64,000 nucleotides of DNA, taken from assembly GCA_015056495.1 (NCBI GenBank), contig SVGC01000003.1:62001-126000 (forward strand), in the 5' to 3' direction. The notes under the pieces were generated by a model. It worked only from the letters and a program-made list of their open reading frames with translations. It was not told the DNA's origin and did not search any database. The first letter of the stretch is position 1. Each line of letters opens with the position of its first letter. This document shows positions 8,156 to 59,467 of the stretch, one piece after another. Source of the stretch: Butyrivibrio sp. (lineage in GTDB: Bacteria > Bacillota > Clostridia > Lachnospirales > Lachnospiraceae). The translations under genes were made by a program, and so were the position numbers.

Positions 8156-8183
8156 TTGACTTTACACTTAACTATAATGTTAA
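8156..8183 (+). promoter_or_regulatory. MerR-type operator/promoter
   Basis: TTGACT (8156-8161) is followed by the perfect palindrome TTAAC-TATAAT-GTTAA (8168-8183). A dyad inside a stretched promoter spacer is how MerR-family regulators control promoters. It sits 26 nt before the MerR gene start, consistent with autoregulation. Confidence 0.55.
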
Positions 8184-8209
8184 AACTGTTTCAGAAGGAG
8201 ATGCGAGGT

Positions 8210-9028
8210 ATGACAATAAAGGAGTTTTCTAATCTGTGCGGTTGTAACCCGCAGACAATACGATATTATGATCGCATGAATTTGCTGAAACCGGTTAAAG
8301 TAGATGATTGGACAGGATATCGCTTTTATGATGAAAGGCAGGCTCTTGATTTTGTAAAGATAAAGAATCTTCAAACTGCTGGTTTCACAATCGATGAGAT
8401 AAGACAACTTCTCGATGCAGATAATGAAGCTATTTATGAAGCATTTTCAAAGAAAATCAAGGAGCAGAAGGACAAACTTAATGCAATGCTTGAGATTCAG
8501 AAGTCATACCAGAGCGAACTAACAGAAATGGCCAAAACAATTGAAGAAGTCCGAGGTGAGGTCAAAAAGCGCATGGACGATTACAATCCAAGCCTGGAAT
8601 TTGGAATTGATAACGCCACATATGATCAGATGAAGGGAAATGTAGATGATTTTTTTGACAACATTATAAAAAGCTGTGAATATGACAAATTTAAATATCT
8701 TAATAATGGTGAGAATAGCAAAGAATTTGAACAAGATTTATTGAATAATCCAAATTTAGTAACTTGTTATGAAAAGCATGGTTGGGATGCAGTAAAAGAC
8801 TTTTATGATGAATTTTCCGTTTTAGAAGATGGTCAGGAATACAAGCTTCTTTTTGAACTTGCATCTGATAAAGCAAACTGGACAGGCTTTGCAAATACCA
8901 TCCTGGGAATGCTGATTTTGAAGAACAAGGGAAGAAAAAGAAGGCTTGGCTGCAAGATCGACAGTTCTAAAGATGGATATAATCACTTCTGGCTTTTAAA
9001 AAGAAAAAATGACGAGATAGGAAAATAA
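8210..9028 (+). CDS. MerR-family transcriptional regulator
   Basis: The ATG at 8210 (MTIKEFSNLCGCNPQTIRYY) is the real start; the track start lies inside the promoter. Residues 1-70 are a MerR winged HTH with the YYDRMNLLKPV and GYRFYDERQ signatures, followed by a coiled-coil dimerisation helix (about 75-125). The last 140 residues match no effector domain I recognise (TWGF/DNA-twisting ligand domain not evident). No cysteine cluster suggests a metal sensor. It ends 1 nt before the next gene, so the two are coupled. Confidence 0.85.
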   Translation: MTIKEFSNLCGCNPQTIRYYDRMNLLKPVKVDDWTGYRFYDERQALDFVKIKNLQTAGFTIDEIRQLLDADNEAIYEAFSKKIKEQKDKLNAMLEIQKSYQSELTEMAKTIEEVRGEVKKRMDDYNPSLEFGIDNATYDQMKGNVDDFFDNIIKSCEYDKFKYLNNGENSKEFEQDLLNNPNLVTCYEKHGWDAVKDFYDEFSVLEDGQEYKLLFELASDKANWTGFANTILGMLILKNKGRKRRLGCKIDSSKDGYNHFWLLKRKNDEIGK

Positions 9029-9029
9029 A

Positions 9030-10079
9030 ATGGGGAAATACAACTTAGAAGAGCTTTATAATCAGGTAACAGAAGCTATTGCAACATTAGATTTTGATCA
9101 GATATGGGAGGGTTTCAAACCGCTGAAATTTGCACTCTATGATGATGAGAAGTGCTATTGTAATGGTGAATATATAGAAAAAACAGCGGATTTTTGCGCT
9201 AATACGGCTATAGAGTATCATGGTGAGACAATAGCTATTTGGAATATTTCAGAAAAACCTGATCCAACTATATTAACATCAGAAATAGTACATGAAATGT
9301 TCCATGCATTTCAGATGATGCAAGGGTGGAATTGCTGGGCAAAAGAACTCGAAGCACTGTACAAATATCAGTATAGTGCTGAAAATCTAAGCCTAAAGCG
9401 TTATGAGAACAAGATTTTACTGAACATTCTGGTTGATTACAACGAAGCTAAATACGAAGAGCTCATGTCTATAAGAAAATACCGTAGTGAAGCATTTCCA
9501 TATGAATTTTCTTACGAAACAAAGGTGGAAGAGATAGAGGGAACAGCAACTTATGTTGAGTGGCAGGTATTGAAGCAGTTAGATGAAAAAAAGGCTTATG
9601 AATTTACAGAAAAGATGAAAAAAGTAATGACTCAGCCAAAGTATTTTTTCCCTATTAGAATTTCAAGTTATAATACCGGTGCTCTTATGATTCATGCCAT
9701 GAGGTGTGCTGGTAACTATCCTTTTGCGACAAGCGAAAGACCTGTAATAAGATCCTTACTTAAAAATATATTGCCCAAGGAGTTTGAGCCTGATAATAAG
9801 GTCATAGATACTGATGTTGAGAAAGCTCTTTCTGATTTTAATGAAGAATCCAAAAATATTATAGAATCTGCTATTGCCCGTAATGAGGTTGTTTTGACAG
9901 GACCTTTGGAGCTGGAAAGCTTAAATATATATGATGCCAGGTGCTACAAAGGATTTCTTACCTCCAGGTTTTTCATATTGTACAAGGAAAATGGTGAAAC
10001 AAAGATGTTTAATGGGGATGTAGTCATCCGCATGAAGGATGAGAATACTATTGATACTGTTTACAGATGGGTATCTTAA
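9030..10079 (+). CDS. Putative zinc metallopeptidase coupled to the MerR regulator
   Basis: 349 aa with an HEMFH zinc motif at residues 88-92 (HExxH), preceded by SEIV as in zincin active-site helices. A second conserved-looking segment, EGTATYVEW at about 170-178, could supply the third ligand (glutamate zincin style). No signal peptide or membrane helix, so probably cytoplasmic. Exact family not recognised. Start 2 nt after the MerR stop implies translational coupling. It could be a target or a processing partner of the regulator; this is inference. Confidence 0.65.
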   Translation: MGKYNLEELYNQVTEAIATLDFDQIWEGFKPLKFALYDDEKCYCNGEYIEKTADFCANTAIEYHGETIAIWNISEKPDPTILTSEIVHEMFHAFQMMQGWNCWAKELEALYKYQYSAENLSLKRYENKILLNILVDYNEAKYEELMSIRKYRSEAFPYEFSYETKVEEIEGTATYVEWQVLKQLDEKKAYEFTEKMKKVMTQPKYFFPIRISSYNTGALMIHAMRCAGNYPFATSERPVIRSLLKNILPKEFEPDNKVIDTDVEKALSDFNEESKNIIESAIARNEVVLTGPLELESLNIYDARCYKGFLTSRFFILYKENGETKMFNGDVVIRMKDENTIDTVYRWVS

Positions 10080-10088
10080 AAAAGAGTA

Positions 10089-10117
10089 TTGACACCATTT
10101 TGTCTGTAAATTATACT
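10089..10117 (+). promoter_or_regulatory. Promoter of the GNAT-methyltransferase leader
   Basis: TTGACA (10089-10094), 17 nt, TATACT (10112-10117): close to a consensus sigma-A promoter. Initiation near 10124 gives a leader of about 235 nt. Confidence 0.65.
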
Positions 10118-10152: not shown

Positions 10153-10263
10153 GTGTTAAATATCAGACTCATCAATTCAACTACACCATCAAATAATCAG
10201 CCCGTGAATAATAATCAGGGGTTTATTGGTGTTATGTATGATGAGGAAAGCGGTAATGCATAG
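10153..10263 (+). CDS. Leader ORF 1 (36 codons, GTG start) of the second attenuator
   Basis: The GTG frame begins V/M-LNIRLINSTTP and ends at TAG (10261-10263). The ribosome site is weak. Codons 5-8 overlap the first attenuator arm, so a ribosome stalled there would mask that arm. An Asn/Gln-rich middle is unusual. Whether it is translated is unproven. Confidence 0.4.
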   Translation: MLNIRLINSTTPSNNQPVNNNQGFIGVMYDEESGNA

Positions 10264-10334
10264 TTATGAAAATGCAAATCAGATAAGAGATTAAGCCTCA
10301 TCAGACTTACAAAAAGGTTTGATGAGGTTTTTTT
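10168..10334 (+). promoter_or_regulatory. Four-arm transcription attenuator upstream of the GNAT-methyltransferase gene
   Basis: Arm A CTCATCA (10168-10174), arm B TGATGAGG (10239-10246), arm C CCTCATCA (10296-10303), arm D TGATGAGG (10320-10327) followed by T7. A:B plus C:D gives termination; B:C gives antitermination. A lies in leader ORF 1 and B overlaps the ribosome site of leader ORF 2, so translation could set the choice. Duplication of both arms is directly visible; mechanism is inference. Confidence 0.7.
10256..10294 (+). CDS. Leader ORF 2 (12 codons) of the second attenuator
   Basis: MHSYENANQIRD follows GAGGAAAG by 5 nt and stops 1 nt before the terminator stem. Its Shine-Dalgarno overlaps attenuator arm B, so arm A:B pairing would hide it. 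Confidence 0.45.
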   Translation: MHSYENANQIRD

Positions 10335-10360
10335 ATATTCAAAACCAGGAGGAGAAGATT

Positions 10361-12552: not shown

Positions 12553-12568
12553 TTTGATTTAGGTGAAC

Positions 12569-12616
12569 ATGTTGATACGGCTGCTGCGTATGTGGCGGCT
12601 TAATGTGTACGCTTAA
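12569..12616 (+). CDS. ABC-F leader peptide (15 aa)
   Basis: MLIRLLRMWRLNVYA follows AGGTG by about 4 nt. Arg occurs every third residue (4, 7, 10). Arg-rich short leaders are known upstream of macrolide-inducible methylases and ABC-F genes, although the strict Arg-X-Arg stalling motif is absent here. It lies in the loop between two complementary arms and before a terminator. Too short for the ORF track. Confidence 0.6.
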   Translation: MLIRLLRMWRLNVYA

Positions 12617-12768
12617 ATTGGATTATCATGCATTCAGAGCCTATTTTATTCATATATAGGTCTATTTGTGTGAGTCTATTTTGCGTACGCAGGGTAGACT
12701 CATTTTATTGGAAAAAATGGATTTTCTTTCAATAAATATTTCTGACTGATAGACAAGGGGGCTTATAT

Positions 12769-14241
12769 ATGACTAGAAGATTACTAATACAAGCAGAGAA
12801 TATAGTTCATTCCTATGGAGAACAGACAGTCCTTGATTTTGACAGATTTTATCTGTACGAAGGTGAGAAAGTAGGACTGGTTGGAATGAATGGTGCAGGT
12901 AAGAGTACGCTGCTTAAGCTATTGGCAGGAGAGATAGAACCTACGTCAGGAACAATCTCCAGCAAATGCACTCCTTTTTATTTTGAACAGTTTGGATCTG
13001 ATGTTACATATGTTGAAACTGACTATGCAGAGGCAGGAAAAATGGGAGTGGCAGACCGACTCTGGCAGGAAAAGGTCAGTGGCGGAGAAGATACCAGAAT
13101 AAGGCTTGCACAGCTCTTTTCAAGCACGCATGCGGTGGCATTTCTGGACGAACCAACTTCAAATCTGGATTTCGAAGGCGTTGAAATGCTCAAAAAGAGA
13201 CTAAAAGAAATAGATACATTTGTCATGATCAGCCATGACAGGTCTGTTCTAAATGATCTATGTGACAGGATCGTAGAAATATCTTTTGGGAAACTGCATA
13301 GTTACAGCGGAAATTACGATGAATATGTAGTCCAGAAAGAAGAACTGATTAAAACACAGCAGGCAGAATATGAGAATTATCAGGCTGAGAAAAAGAGACT
13401 AAGAAACGTCTACATAGATAAAAAAGTCAAGGCAAAGACTGTCGAAAAGAAGCCGAAGAATTTATCAGCAAGTGAAGCAAAGGCAATTTCTTTTTGTGGC
13501 AATAGAAAACCAGAGGACAAGGCGCGAGGAATAGAAAGAAGTGCTGCAAACGTTCTTAAACGAATTGAGCATATGGAGGTAAAAGAAAAACCAAAAGAAG
13601 AACCAACTTTAAGGCCGGATTTCAGGCTTACTAATCCACCAAGAAATCCCATTGTGATCCGCGGAGAGCATATTTCTTTTGCCTATGATGATCATGTTGT
13701 CTTTGACGATGCCAATTTTATGATAAAAAACGGAAGTAAGGTGGCCTTACTTGGCTGTAACGGTGCAGGAAAGACTACCTTGCTTGAACTTATCAACCAG
13801 CGGGAAAGCATATATGTGGTTCCGGGAGTCAAAATAGGGTATGCCAAGCAGAATATGTCACAGATAGAACTTGATAAAACTGTTCTTGAAAATGTTCGCA
13901 GAGTCAGCATTCAGAGTGAGAGCCTTTCCAGGATAATATTGGCACGTCTTTTGCTATCTGAAAGAGATATGCACAAAAAGGCATCAGAGCTTTCTGGTGG
14001 TGAGAGGATGAAGCTGTCTTTTGCAATGCTTTTTGTGTCAGATGTAAATTTGCTTATATTGGATGAACCAACGAACTATCTTGATATCCCATCTGTTGAG
14101 GCTTTAGAAAAAATGCTGAAAGAGTATGAAGGAACACTTGTGTTTACTTCACATGATAAAGTTTTTGTGGACAGGATCGCAACAGAGAGGCTTTATCTAG
14201 GTAACGGGAAGATTAGAGAATGTGACAAAACTGTAATGTAA
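12769..14241 (+). CDS. ABC-F family ATPase, probable ribosomal protection protein
   Basis: 490 aa with two nucleotide-binding domains and no membrane segments. Walker A GMNGAGKST and GCNGAGKTT; signatures VSGGEDTRI and LSGGERMKL; Walker B with FLDEPTSNLD and ILDEPTNYLD. Between them is a charged linker (about 185-290, KKRLRNVYIDKKVKAK), the part that reaches the ribosomal exit-site region in Vga/Lsa/Msr-type proteins. It likely dislodges drugs from 50S or rescues stalled ribosomes. The upstream leader and terminator support a drug-inducible role. Spectrum cannot be predicted. Confidence 0.85.
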   Translation: MTRRLLIQAENIVHSYGEQTVLDFDRFYLYEGEKVGLVGMNGAGKSTLLKLLAGEIEPTSGTISSKCTPFYFEQFGSDVTYVETDYAEAGKMGVADRLWQEKVSGGEDTRIRLAQLFSSTHAVAFLDEPTSNLDFEGVEMLKKRLKEIDTFVMISHDRSVLNDLCDRIVEISFGKLHSYSGNYDEYVVQKEELIKTQQAEYENYQAEKKRLRNVYIDKKVKAKTVEKKPKNLSASEAKAISFCGNRKPEDKARGIERSAANVLKRIEHMEVKEKPKEEPTLRPDFRLTNPPRNPIVIRGEHISFAYDDHVVFDDANFMIKNGSKVALLGCNGAGKTTLLELINQRESIYVVPGVKIGYAKQNMSQIELDKTVLENVRRVSIQSESLSRIILARLLLSERDMHKKASELSGGERMKLSFAMLFVSDVNLLILDEPTNYLDIPSVEALEKMLKEYEGTLVFTSHDKVFVDRIATERLYLGNGKIRECDKTVM

Positions 14242-35583: not shown

Positions 35584-35611
35584 TATTGAAATATAAGACA
35601 ATTTATAAAGG

Positions 35612-35857
35612 CAATGACGAAGAGAGTAGATTATCTTGGAAAGCTTTAGAGAGCCAGTGGTTGGTGCAAACTGGTGCGAGTACTGATATTTGAAAATCAC
35701 TTCTGAGCTGCAAAGTCGAAATGATCAGTAGACTGCGACGTATTCTTCGCGTTAGGAAGAGCCGTATGAAACTTATTTAAGGAAGTACGTGTAAAACAGG
35801 TGGTTAAGCGTGGTAAATTTTGCCTCGTCCTTTTTTACGAAAGGACGAGGCTTTTTT
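35612..35857 (+). promoter_or_regulatory. T-box riboswitch of ileS
   Basis: A 250-nt leader with Stem I-type GACGAAGAGAGTAGA and GAGAGCCAGTGG elements, an AGGTGGTTAAGCG T-box bulge (35798-35810) and a terminator GCCTCGTCCTTT/AAAGGACGAGGC followed by T6 (35822-35857). Uncharged tRNA would pair with the specifier and the bulge to favour the antiterminator. An ATC near 35695 could be the isoleucine specifier; I could not fold Stem I to prove this. Confidence 0.85.
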
Positions 35858-35879: not shown

Positions 35880-38800
35880 ATGTACAACAAGGTCACTACA
35901 GACATGAACTTTGTCGACAGAGAAAAAGAAGTTGAAAAGTTCTGGAAAGATAATGACATCTTCCAGAAGTCTATCGACAACCGCAAGGAGGGCGAAACAT
36001 ATACTTTTTATGATGGACCGCCTACAGCAAATGGTAAGCCACATATAGGTCACGTTCTTACACGTGCAATCAAGGATATGATTCCTCGTTACCGCACTAT
36101 GAAGGGATATAACGTTCCTCGTAAGGCAGGTTGGGATACACATGGACTTCCTGTTGAGCTTGAAGTTGAGAAGCTCCTTGGTCTTGATGGTAAGGAACAG
36201 ATTGAAGAATATGGTATGGAGCCATTCATCAAGAAGTGTAAGGAAAGCGTTTGGAAATACAAAGGTATGTGGGAAGATTTCTCAGGTACAGTTGGTTTCT
36301 GGGCTGATATGGATAACCCATATGTTACATATGATGACAACTTCATCGAGTCAGAATGGTGGGCTCTTAAGACTATCTACGACAAAGGCCTTTTATATAA
36401 GGGATTTAAAGTAGTTCCATATTGTCCTCGTTGTGGCACACCTCTTTCATCTCACGAGGTTGCACAGGGTTATAAGACTGTAAAAGAGCGCTCTGCTGTT
36501 GCACGTTTCAAAGTAGTTGGTGAAGATGCATATATCCTTGCATGGACAACAACACCTTGGACACTTCCATCTAACGTTGCCCTCTGCGTAAACCCTGAAG
36601 AGACATACGCTAAGGTAAAGGCAGCTGATGGCAATACATATTACATGGCACAGGCACTTCTTGACAAAGTTCTTTCTCCACTTGCAAAAGAAGAAGGACA
36701 GGCAGCTTATGAAGTACTTGAGACAATGAAGGGAACAGACCTTGAGTACAAGGAATATGAGCCACTTTATGATGGAGCTAAGGATATAATTGCAAAGCAG
36801 CGTAAGAAGGCTCACTTTGTAGTATGTGACGATTATGTAACTATGACAGATGGTACTGGTGTAGTTCATATTGCTCCTGCATTCGGTGAAGATGATGCCA
36901 AGGTTGGACGCAAGTACGACCTTCCTTTTGTACAGCTTGTTGATGAAAAAGGTGAGATGACAAAGGAAACACCTTTTGCAGGCAAGTTTGTAAAAGATGC
37001 TGATCCACTTGTTATCAAAGATCTGAGTGAGAGAAAGCTCCTTTTTGATGCACCTAAATTTGAACATGAATATCCACACTGCTGGAGATGTAATACACCA
37101 CTTATCTACTATGCTCGTTCAACATGGTTCATTAAGATGACTGCTGTAAAGGATCAGCTTGTAGAAGGTAATAAGAAAATCAACTGGATCCCACAGTCAA
37201 TTGGTGAAGGAAGATTTGGTAACTGGCTTGAAAACATTCAGGACTGGGGTATCTCACGTAACCGTTATTGGGGAACTCCTCTCAATATCTGGGAATGTGA
37301 GGATTGTGGTCATCTGACATCAGTTGGAAGCCGTAAGGAACTTGCTGAATTAACAGGTGATGACAGCGCTCTTACAACAGAGCTTCACAGACCATATATT
37401 GATAAGTTTGTGATCAAGTGTCCTGAATGTGGTAAGGAAATGCACAGAGTTCCAGAAGTTATCGACTGCTGGTTTGACTCAGGTGCTATGCCATTTGCTC
37501 AGCATCACTATCCATTTGAGAACAAGGAATTATTTGAGAAACAGTTCCCTGCAGCATTTATTTCAGAGGCTGTCGACCAGACAAGAGGATGGTTCTACTC
37601 ATTACATGCAGAATCAACACTTCTTTTTGGAAAGCCATGTTATGAAAATGTTATCGTTCTTGGTCTTGTACAGGATGAGAATGGTCAGAAGATGAGTAAG
37701 AGTAAGGGTAATGCAGTAGACCCATTTGATGCTCTTAAGAACTATGGTGCAGATGCTATCAGATGGTACTTCTATACTAACTCAGCTCCATGGCTTCCTA
37801 GCCGTTTCTATGGCAAGGCAGTTCAGGAAGGACAGAGAAAGTTCCTTGGAACATTGTGGAATACATATGCATTCTTCGTACTGTACGCTAATATCGATGG
37901 CTTCAACGCTGCTGATTACAAGCTTGAGCCTGAGAAGCTTACAGTTATGGATAAGTGGCTCTTGTCTAAGCTTAACAGCATGGTAAAAGATGTAGACTCT
38001 AACCTTGAGAACTACAGGATCCCGGAAGCTGGTAAGGCTCTTGATAAGTTTGTTGATGATATGAGTAACTGGTATGTTCGTCGTAGCCGTGAGCGTTTCT
38101 GGGCTAAGGGAATGGAACAGGATAAGATCTCTGCATACATGACTCTGTATACAGCACTTGTTACAGTAGCTAAGGCAGCAGCTCCTATGGTTCCATTTAT
38201 GACAGAAGAAATCTATCAGAACCTTGTAAGAAACAGCTTTGCTGATGCTCCAGAAAGTATCCACCTCTGCGATTATCCTACAGTTGATGAGAGCATGATC
38301 GACAAGCAGCTTGAGCAGGATATGGATGAAGTTCTTGATATCGTTGTACTTGGACGTGCATGCAGAAATGCAGCTAACATCAAGAACCGTCAGCCAATCG
38401 GACAGATGTATGTAAAGGCAGAGCATACAGTTGGTGAATTCTATCAGGATATCATCACAGATGAGCTTAATGTTAAGAAGGTTGCATTTACTGATGATGT
38501 AAGAGACTTTACAAGCTATACATTCAAGCCACAGCTCAAGACAGTAGGACCTAAGTATGGTAAGTCACTTGGTGCTATCAAGGAATACCTTGGCAATCTT
38601 GATGGCAATGCAGCTATGGATGAGCTTAACAATAATGGTGCTCTTAAGTTTGATGCTAACGGAACAGAAGTAGAACTTACTAAGGAAGATCTCCTCATTG
38701 ATATGACTCAGAAGGAAGGCTTTATGTCTCAGGAAGACTATGGTATTACAGTAGTTCTTGATACTAACCTTACAGAAGAGCTTCTGAATGAAGGATTTGT

Positions 38801-58075: not shown

Positions 58076-59467
58076 ATGGAACTTACAGACATTAAGGACT
58101 TGTTTCAGAGCCCGGAAAAATATACTGACCAGAAGGTTACAGTAGGCGGATGGATTAGAAATATACGTGATTCTAAGACAATTGGATTCATTGTGCTTAA
58201 TGATGGTACATTTTTTACACCTCTTCAGGTAGTATATACAGATGCACTTTCTAATTTTGCTGAGATCAGCAAGTTAAATGTTGGTGCAGCTATAATTGCA
58301 ACAGGTACAATTGTTGCAACACCAAATGCAAAGCAGCCTTTCGAAATGCAGGCTGAAAAAGTTGAGATTGAAGGTGTTTCATCACCTGATTATCCACTTC
58401 AGGCTAAGAGACATACTCTTGAGTATTTAAGAACAATACCTCATCTTCGTGCAAGAACAAACACATTTGAGGCAGTATTCAGAGTTAGATCTGTTGCTGC
58501 ATATGCAATCCATACTTTCTTCCAGGAGAGAGGATTTACATATGTTCATACACCACTTATCACAGGCAGTGACTGTGAAGGTGCTGGTGAAATGTTCCAG
58601 GTTACTACAATGGATCTGAACAATGTTCCTAAGACAGAGGATGGACAGGTTGATTACTCAAAAGATTTCTTTGGCAAGCCTGTAAATCTTACAGTTAGCG
58701 GACAGCTTAATGTTGAGACATATGCTTTTGCATTTAAGAATGTTTATACATTTGGACCTACATTCAGAGCCGAAAATTCAAATACAACAAGACATGCAGC
58801 TGAGTTCTGGATGATTGAGCCTGAGCTTTGTTTTGCAGATCTTAAAGACGATTGTGATGTTGCAGAAGCTATGCTTAAGTTTGTTATCAACTATGTACTT
58901 GAGCACTGTCCTGCTGAAATGGAATTCTTTAACCAGTTTATCGATAAGGGTCTTATAGAAAGACTTCATAACGTAGCTGATAACGAATTTGGCAGGATAA
59001 CATATACAGATGCTATAAAGCTCCTTGAAGAACATAACGATGAGTTTGACTTTAAAGTATCATGGGGATGCGATCTTCAGACAGAGCATGAGCGTTATCT
59101 TACAGAGAAGATTTTCAAGAAGCCTGTATTTGTAACAGACTATCCAAAGGACATCAAGGCATTTTACATGAAACTCAATCCAGATGGAAAGACAGTTGCT
59201 GCAGCAGATTGTCTTGTGCCAGGAATTGGTGAGATCATTGGTGGTAGCCAGAGAGAAGATATCCTTGAAGTTCTTGAGAATCGTATGGATGAGCTTGGAC
59301 TTAAGAAGGATGATTACCAGTTCTATCTTGATCTTAGAAGATATGGTTCTGTAAGACATTCAGGATTTGGTCTTGGATTTGAGAGATGCGTAATGTATCT
59401 GACAGGTATGGGCAACATCAGAGATGTTGAGTCATTCCCAAGAACTGTTGGTAACTGCGATTTATAA
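58076..59467 (+). CDS. asnS: Asparaginyl-tRNA synthetase
   Basis: 463 aa. OB-fold N-domain [21 protein letters not shown]; class II motif 2 [21 protein letters not shown]; motif 3 [16 protein letters not shown]. Starts 3 nt after the lipoprotein stop, so it is co-transcribed and perhaps translationally coupled. Confidence 0.96.

Follow-up and report, generated by a model that had tools for sequence, protein, structure and literature searches.

A recurrent leader family of Lachnospiraceae with the features of a ribosome-mediated attenuator, probably responsive to charged asparagine tRNA

In the 64-kb stretch of DNA from a rumen Butyrivibrio analysed here (the window), a gene for a fused GNAT acetyltransferase-methyltransferase is preceded by a leader that very probably belongs to a multi-copy, previously undescribed attenuator family of Lachnospiraceae. 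The family probably switches genes on when charged asparagine tRNA runs short. The reading that we favour, with some reserve, is that of a codon-specific, ribosome-mediated attenuator that responds to Asn-tRNA and has been reused to induce predicted protection genes. Attenuation by a leader peptide is a known kind of control, and what is new is the family itself, the number of its copies and its deployment before unrelated genes.

Results

The leader and its surroundings in the window

Four motifs were found in order on the plus strand between 10168 and 10327 by inspection of the sequence (Table 1), as a sequence-only reading of this DNA had stated, and the leader folds far more stably than its shuffles (z -5.4). 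The motif TGATGAGG occurs nine times in the 64 kb against 3.4 expected, a count reached by no shuffle, and three of the nine occurrences fall inside the 90 bases of the leader arms. Both the promoter and the intrinsic terminator lie 5' of the gene and on its own strand, the arrangement expected of an attenuator, and the terminator, with its 16 pairs, is the strongest terminator-like site across 7-15 kb.

Table 1. Positions of the leader elements and of the controlled gene in the window
Feature	Position	Strand	Basis or remark
Promoter, TTGACA-17-TATACT	10089-10117	+	11 of 12 consensus matches
Leader ORF1, GTG start, 36 aa, (M)LNIRLINSTTPSNNQPVNNNQGFIGVMYDEESGNA	10153-10263	+	Comparative evidence of coding
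Arm 1, CTCATCA	10168-10174	+	Inside ORF1 codons 6-8; pairs with arm 2
Predicted sensor codons 8-15	10174-10197	+	Asn-rich in the GNAT-methyltransferase leader class
Nested helix P2, ACACCA (10183-10188) with TGGTGT (10227-10232)	10183-10232	+	Covaries in the family
Hairpin P3, CCC-G-UGA...UCA-G-GGG, inside ORF1, encoding PVNNNQG	10201-10221	+	Conserved; closing pairs covary
Arm 2, TGATGAGG	10239-10246	+	Alternative partner of arm 1 and arm 3
Small hairpin in the loop between arms 2 and 3	10257-10276	+	Fold of the window; counterpart in relatives
Intrinsic terminator: arm 3, loop, arm 4, U-tract	10293-10335	+	Fold; covariation
Arm 3, CCTCATCA	10296-10303	+	5' side of the terminator
Arm 4, TGATGAGG	10320-10327	+	3' side of the terminator
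Shine-Dalgarno of the downstream gene, AGGAGGAG	10347-10354	+	Sequence
Controlled gene, GNAT-methyltransferase fusion, 429 aa	10361-11650	+	Pfam

Searches against Rfam 15, run over the whole window and permissively over the leader, assigned the leader to no family at the gathering score and gave no T-box (RF00230) match for it. The sole T-box of the window (RF00230) lies at 35605-35835, upstream of a 1052-aa ORF at 35880. On the promoter side of the leader, a 349-aa ORF with an HEMFH motif (9030-10079) adjoins a MerR-type regulator gene (8156-9028) and matched nothing in Pfam or NCBIfam. An ABC-F resistance-type gene (Vga/Msr-like) lies at 12769, 1.1 kb downstream of the GNAT-methyltransferase gene, and its own, unrelated leader (12563-12769) contains the short ORF MLIRLLRMWRLNVYA (12569), long hairpins and a terminator-like site at 12670-12703, an appearance typical of a drug-induced attenuator.

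Conservation and covariation of the arms

Relatives of the GNAT-methyltransferase gene were gathered from public genomes and their upstream regions compared. Promoter, ORF, hairpins and terminator recur upstream of the gene in many Butyrivibrio members. Of 86 related leaders, 75 have a promoter with at least 10 of 12 consensus matches at about the same distance, where 3% would be expected in shuffles, although such leader counts are not independent because the leaders are related.

Taken together, the 1:2, P2, P3 and terminator helices of the 86 leaders hold 159 cells with two-sided changes that keep the pair, compared with 49 in shuffles (a control that ignores descent), and pairing is lost when the helix partners are slid. 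Arms 1 and 2 are paired in 94% of cells, with two-sided changes at five pairs and a covariation score that is by itself above every shuffle. For P2 the corresponding share is 75%, all four pairs having two-sided changes; for P3 it is 97%, with covariation at the closing pairs; and for the terminator it is also 97%, 8 of its 14 pairs showing two-sided changes. The small hairpin between arms 2 and 3 has a counterpart with a compensated change, ACAATAT-ATATTGT in L009 and L010 versus ACAGTAT-ATACTGT in L014.

Pairing of arms 2 and 3 holds in 96% of cells and includes a few compensated swaps; their covariation is on its own modest because the arm is nearly invariant. The strongest support for this predicted pairing is the replacement of whole arms in two leaders, namely GATAAGGTC with GACCTTATC in L089 and TGATAGGG with CCCTATC in L196, the fourth arm matching in each. 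The 1:2, 2:3 and 3:4 pairings are mutually exclusive, and all three are conserved.

ORF1 is conserved and ORF2 is not

Of 82 distinct leaders, 81 have at least 28 uninterrupted codons in the frame of ORF1, compared with 0 and 1 of 82 for the other two frames, and ORF1 starts with ATG in 80 of the 82, the window having GTG. On this comparative evidence, ORF1, which overlaps arm 1, is taken to be a real coding leader. The earlier claim that arm 1 lies on Arg-Leu-Ile codons was right as to Leu and Ile, since the arm sits on Leu6-Ile7-(Asn8); Arg5 falls immediately before it and is not conserved among leaders. The Arg-Leu-Ile codons are thus not likely to be the sensor, and the Asn-rich codons that follow arm 1 appear to be the informative ones.

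The second frame, ORF2 (ATG, 10241-10294), has 17 codons in the window and overlaps arm 2. In 20 of 78 related leaders its ATG shares the frame of ORF1; in those where it does not, the length of ORF2 lies anywhere between 2 and 33 codons. No Shine-Dalgarno was present in the bases preceding that ATG. As neither its frame, its length nor its ribosome site is conserved, ORF2 was rejected as a gene, and its ATG simply arises from the arm sequence TGATGAGG. Of the two overlapping leader ORFs that had been proposed, only the first therefore survives comparison, and the proposals that arm 2 covers a ribosome site and that ORF2 is under translational control are set aside with the second.

Folding and the proposed switch

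In the window transcript up to arm 3, the predicted probability is 0.86 for the 1:2 pairing and 0.11 for 2:3. When the first 36 nt were masked, which mimics a ribosome halted just past arm 1, the latter rose to 0.99. Across the family the antiterminator exceeded 0.5 in 78 of 78 leaders with arm 1 masked versus 20 of 78 left free, and arm 2 lost most of its pairing with the 5' part (0.66 before, 0.06 after) when the first 45 nt were shuffled. A few leaders have no clear 1:2 pairing in the fold. At full-length equilibrium the terminator wins, with a mean antiterminator probability of 0.02; the mechanism therefore needs the 2:3 helix to be formed before arm 4 is made. The formation of an antiterminator before the last arm has been made is standard for attenuators.

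These predictions suggest the following switch. An uninhibited ribosome would read ORF1 through arm 1 and past P3 and end on or beside arm 2, leaving the 3:4 terminator to form, and in the absence of translation arms 1 and 2 would pair, so that 3:4 again terminates. A ribosome halted in the codons right after arm 1, which would be the sensor, is expected to mask that arm and let arms 2 and 3 pair before arm 4, whereupon RNA polymerase would continue into the gene. A shortage of charged Asn-tRNA, whether from inhibition of asparaginyl-tRNA synthetase or from asparagine starvation, would in this manner induce a gene that relieves the shortage. With the pairings and ORF1 both conserved, a ribosome-mediated transcription attenuator upstream of the GNAT-methyltransferase gene is strongly supported as a prediction from sequence, and the part of the sequence-only reading in which the position of the ribosome on ORF1 decides between 2:3 and 3:4 holds. 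The stalling on ORF1, and asparagine as the signal in the window, are inferences.

Sensor codons and linked synthetase genes

In a neighbouring genus the leader precedes an asparaginyl-tRNA synthetase gene, asnS, in about 21 loci (NCBIfam asparagine--tRNA ligase, E 6e-206). In ten distinct asnS leaders, of which MAFTSMLNNLNNNNNNSVNNNQGI and MSRSFVINNNNNNNNNSVNNNQGI are examples, Asn fills 71 of 80 positions at codons 8-15, about 90% compared with a background of 5%. The GNAT-methyltransferase leaders have Asn at 69 of 176 of these positions (39%, where 11% is expected), compared with 19.7 +- 4.0 in nucleotide shuffles and a maximum of 34 in 2000 of them. In the other leaders the count is 78 of 392, with 31 expected.

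A second match concerns alanine. L147 (G365:C43) has the leader IAANARPVNAQG with four Ala codons before a second AlaRS of 607 aa, the 893-aa housekeeping enzyme of that genome lying at a separate locus; no other leader exceeds one Ala in the sensor stretch, and the case is one leader type in two near-identical copies. The short second AlaRS could be an inhibitor-resistant copy. The leader of L139, which stands before an unrelated MFS transporter, is 96% identical to that of L147, and this pair is the only one that we counted as reuse of a leader; apparent reuse across GNAT and nucleosidase genes was left out of that count, since the two are often adjacent and one may be lost.

Codon content thus appears to follow the controlled gene where its amino acid is known. 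Codon sensing is well supported by sequence comparison for the asnS leaders and suggestive for the leader of the second alaS gene. The sensor stretch of the window is a mix of N, T, S and P with no pure Asn run, and Thr is also elevated, at 20% of sensor residues. Given Asn before asnS, Ala before alaS and the richness in Asn of the GNAT-methyltransferase class, the switch in the window most likely senses the charging of Asn-tRNA, and we regard an Asn sensor in its own leader as fairly probable. No one residue dominates in the leaders of stand-alone GNAT and nucleosidase genes, and the sensor there may therefore be less specific.

Two further leaders have other compositions. That of L206, MSKRNLNNNMLNYKPVYYYIQGSDFAYLMRSC, contains a run of Tyr, precedes a kinase-like P-loop gene and is possibly tuned to tyrosine, and that of L148, TTTETVTTTSVNTVQG, is Thr-rich and possibly tuned to threonine; the 271-aa protein downstream of the latter resembles nucleotidyltransferases by eye and had no Pfam match. 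The window also has an asparaginyl-tRNA synthetase gene (58076-59467), 77% identical to its asnS counterpart in the neighbouring genus. It lies directly behind an upstream ORF, and no leader of the Asn-rich family was found there.

Distribution of the family

Of 79 genomes in the genus, 50 gave matches to a first covariance model, built from 13 leaders, with a maximum of 8 in one genome. A second model, built from 86 leaders, gave strong matches in nearly all genomes of one neighbouring genus (26 of 29) and in scattered further genera of Lachnospiraceae, and none beyond those Lachnospiraceae in a sample of the class. Weak matches (E 1e-5 to 1e-3), those from outside the Lachnospiraceae among them, were rejected; those inspected were ordinary terminators without a leader ORF of the ORF1 type. 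A search of plasmid DNA with the leader gave no match, and a search of viral contigs with the GNAT-methyltransferase protein gave no relative.

The leader has been partly or entirely lost upstream of some relatives of the gene. In L003, L015 and L021 the terminator is retained and the leader is mostly or entirely gone; in L012, L017 and L019 the gene follows the promoter directly, which gives the impression that regulation was dropped. A literature search, mostly of open-access papers, for a leader peptide of asnS or an attenuator in Butyrivibrio found nothing relevant.

The controlled genes

The gene in the window encodes a GNAT acetyltransferase domain at residues ~3-148 (Pfam PF13302/PF00583) and a class I SAM methyltransferase domain at ~210-320 (PF08241/PF13649). 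A sequence search of the PDB returned only generic methyltransferases and spermidine acetyltransferases, the GNAT domain matching the latter and not MccE, and the AlphaFold model of the fusion is weak (mean pLDDT 63.8). Leaders of the family also precede methyltransferases, several GNAT families, phosphorylase-superfamily nucleosidases and a P-loop protein. In L162 and L163 a gene for an S66 peptidase, closest to MccC/MccF proteins (4e94, E 1e-145), follows the GNAT gene under a family leader. The GNAT MccE and the peptidase MccF inactivate microcin C, an inhibitor of aspartyl-tRNA synthetase (PMC9239234). With this precedent for the combination of a GNAT and an MccF-type peptidase, a shared role against synthetase-targeting toxins can reasonably be proposed, and a protective role may be supposed for the enzyme of the window.

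Discussion

The alternative with the most in its favour is a drug-arrest attenuator of the Erm/ABC-F kind, in which a ribosome-binding antibiotic stalls ORF1 by acting on a specific nascent chain, the induced enzyme modifies the drug or the ribosome, and asnS is a side branch with an acquired Asn run. The architecture is that of the vmlR, bmrCD and msrD attenuators (PMC9226507, PMC4191407, PMC10314930), the downstream genes are mostly enzymes able in principle to modify drugs, an ABC-F resistance-type gene with its own leader is close by, and the residues L-[IV]-N and PVN..QG are conserved. However, the conservation of PVN..QG coincides with the paired bases of P3 and can be explained by RNA pairing, so it need not mark an arrest peptide. 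Moreover, the sensor stretch remains rich in Asn although its individual residues change place, which is what codon sensing would predict, and the linkages to aminoacyl-tRNA synthetases match codon content. We consider drug arrest unlikely.

Less likely again is a general sensor of slow translation, by which any block to ORF1 elongation, from several drugs or from starvation, would cause antitermination with no amino-acid specificity. The mixture of sensor residues in leaders of stand-alone GNAT, nucleosidase and kinase genes and the smaller Asn excess outside the asnS and GNAT-methyltransferase classes would suit it, but the asnS and second alaS leaders carry matching codons, and the share of Asn in the GNAT-methyltransferase leaders is twice that of the rest. 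Two readings are very improbable: a two-step switch, in which stalling in ORF1 controls both ORF2 translation and read-through, has the ATG frame over arm 2 in its favour and is contradicted by the unconserved frame, length and start context of ORF2, while an RNA-only or protein-binding attenuator without translation would account for the strong, conserved P3 but not for the open ORF1 or for the frame-specificity of the Asn excess.

If codon-specific attenuation in response to Asn-tRNA is accepted, a broader proposal can be made, more tentatively. Rumen Lachnospiraceae might possess a modular alarm, an attenuator that exists in many copies per genome with retuned sensor codons, responds to failing tRNA charging (chiefly of Asn) and induces synthetases together with dispersed enzymes that inactivate synthetase-targeting toxins. 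If true, the leaders would make up a regulatory RNA family, hitherto undescribed, that signals tRNA-charging stress and is tied to dispersed predicted protection genes. It would also point to natural rumen toxins, probably directed against asparaginyl-tRNA synthetase or other synthetases, and the leader could serve as a sequence marker for genes that resist them.

Several known systems resemble parts of this arrangement. The vmlR, bmrCD and msrD leaders likewise combine a leader ORF, alternative hairpins and a terminator before a putative resistance gene, but they respond to ribosome-binding drugs, whereas the linked synthetases here point to codon sensing. In microcin C self-immunity (MccE and MccF; PMC9239234), the GNAT and S66 MccC/MccF-type classes are those also found under the Lachnospiraceae leader, a resemblance of enzyme class only, the GNAT of the window being closer to spermidine acetyltransferases in the PDB than to MccE. 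Histidine leader peptides precede hisS*/hisZ in bacilli (Naville and Gautheret 2010, PMC2965389). They are likewise codon-specific and linked to a synthetase paralogue, in a phylum (Firmicutes) in which T-boxes are the usual device, but with His codons rather than Asn or Ala. As far as we know their sequence is unrelated, and we know of no reported reuse before detoxification genes.

A parallel in logic is found in Streptomyces coelicolor, for which Vecchione and Sello (2010, cited in PMC4787780) reportedly described ribosome-mediated attenuation of the gene for an auxiliary, antibiotic-resistant TrpRS. Codons of that leader are reported to sense the failure of tRNA charging, and read-through to induce the auxiliary synthetase, the same logic as for the second AlaRS of L147. 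The two differ in amino acid, phylum and RNA, and the Lachnospiraceae leader also precedes many enzymes that are not synthetases.
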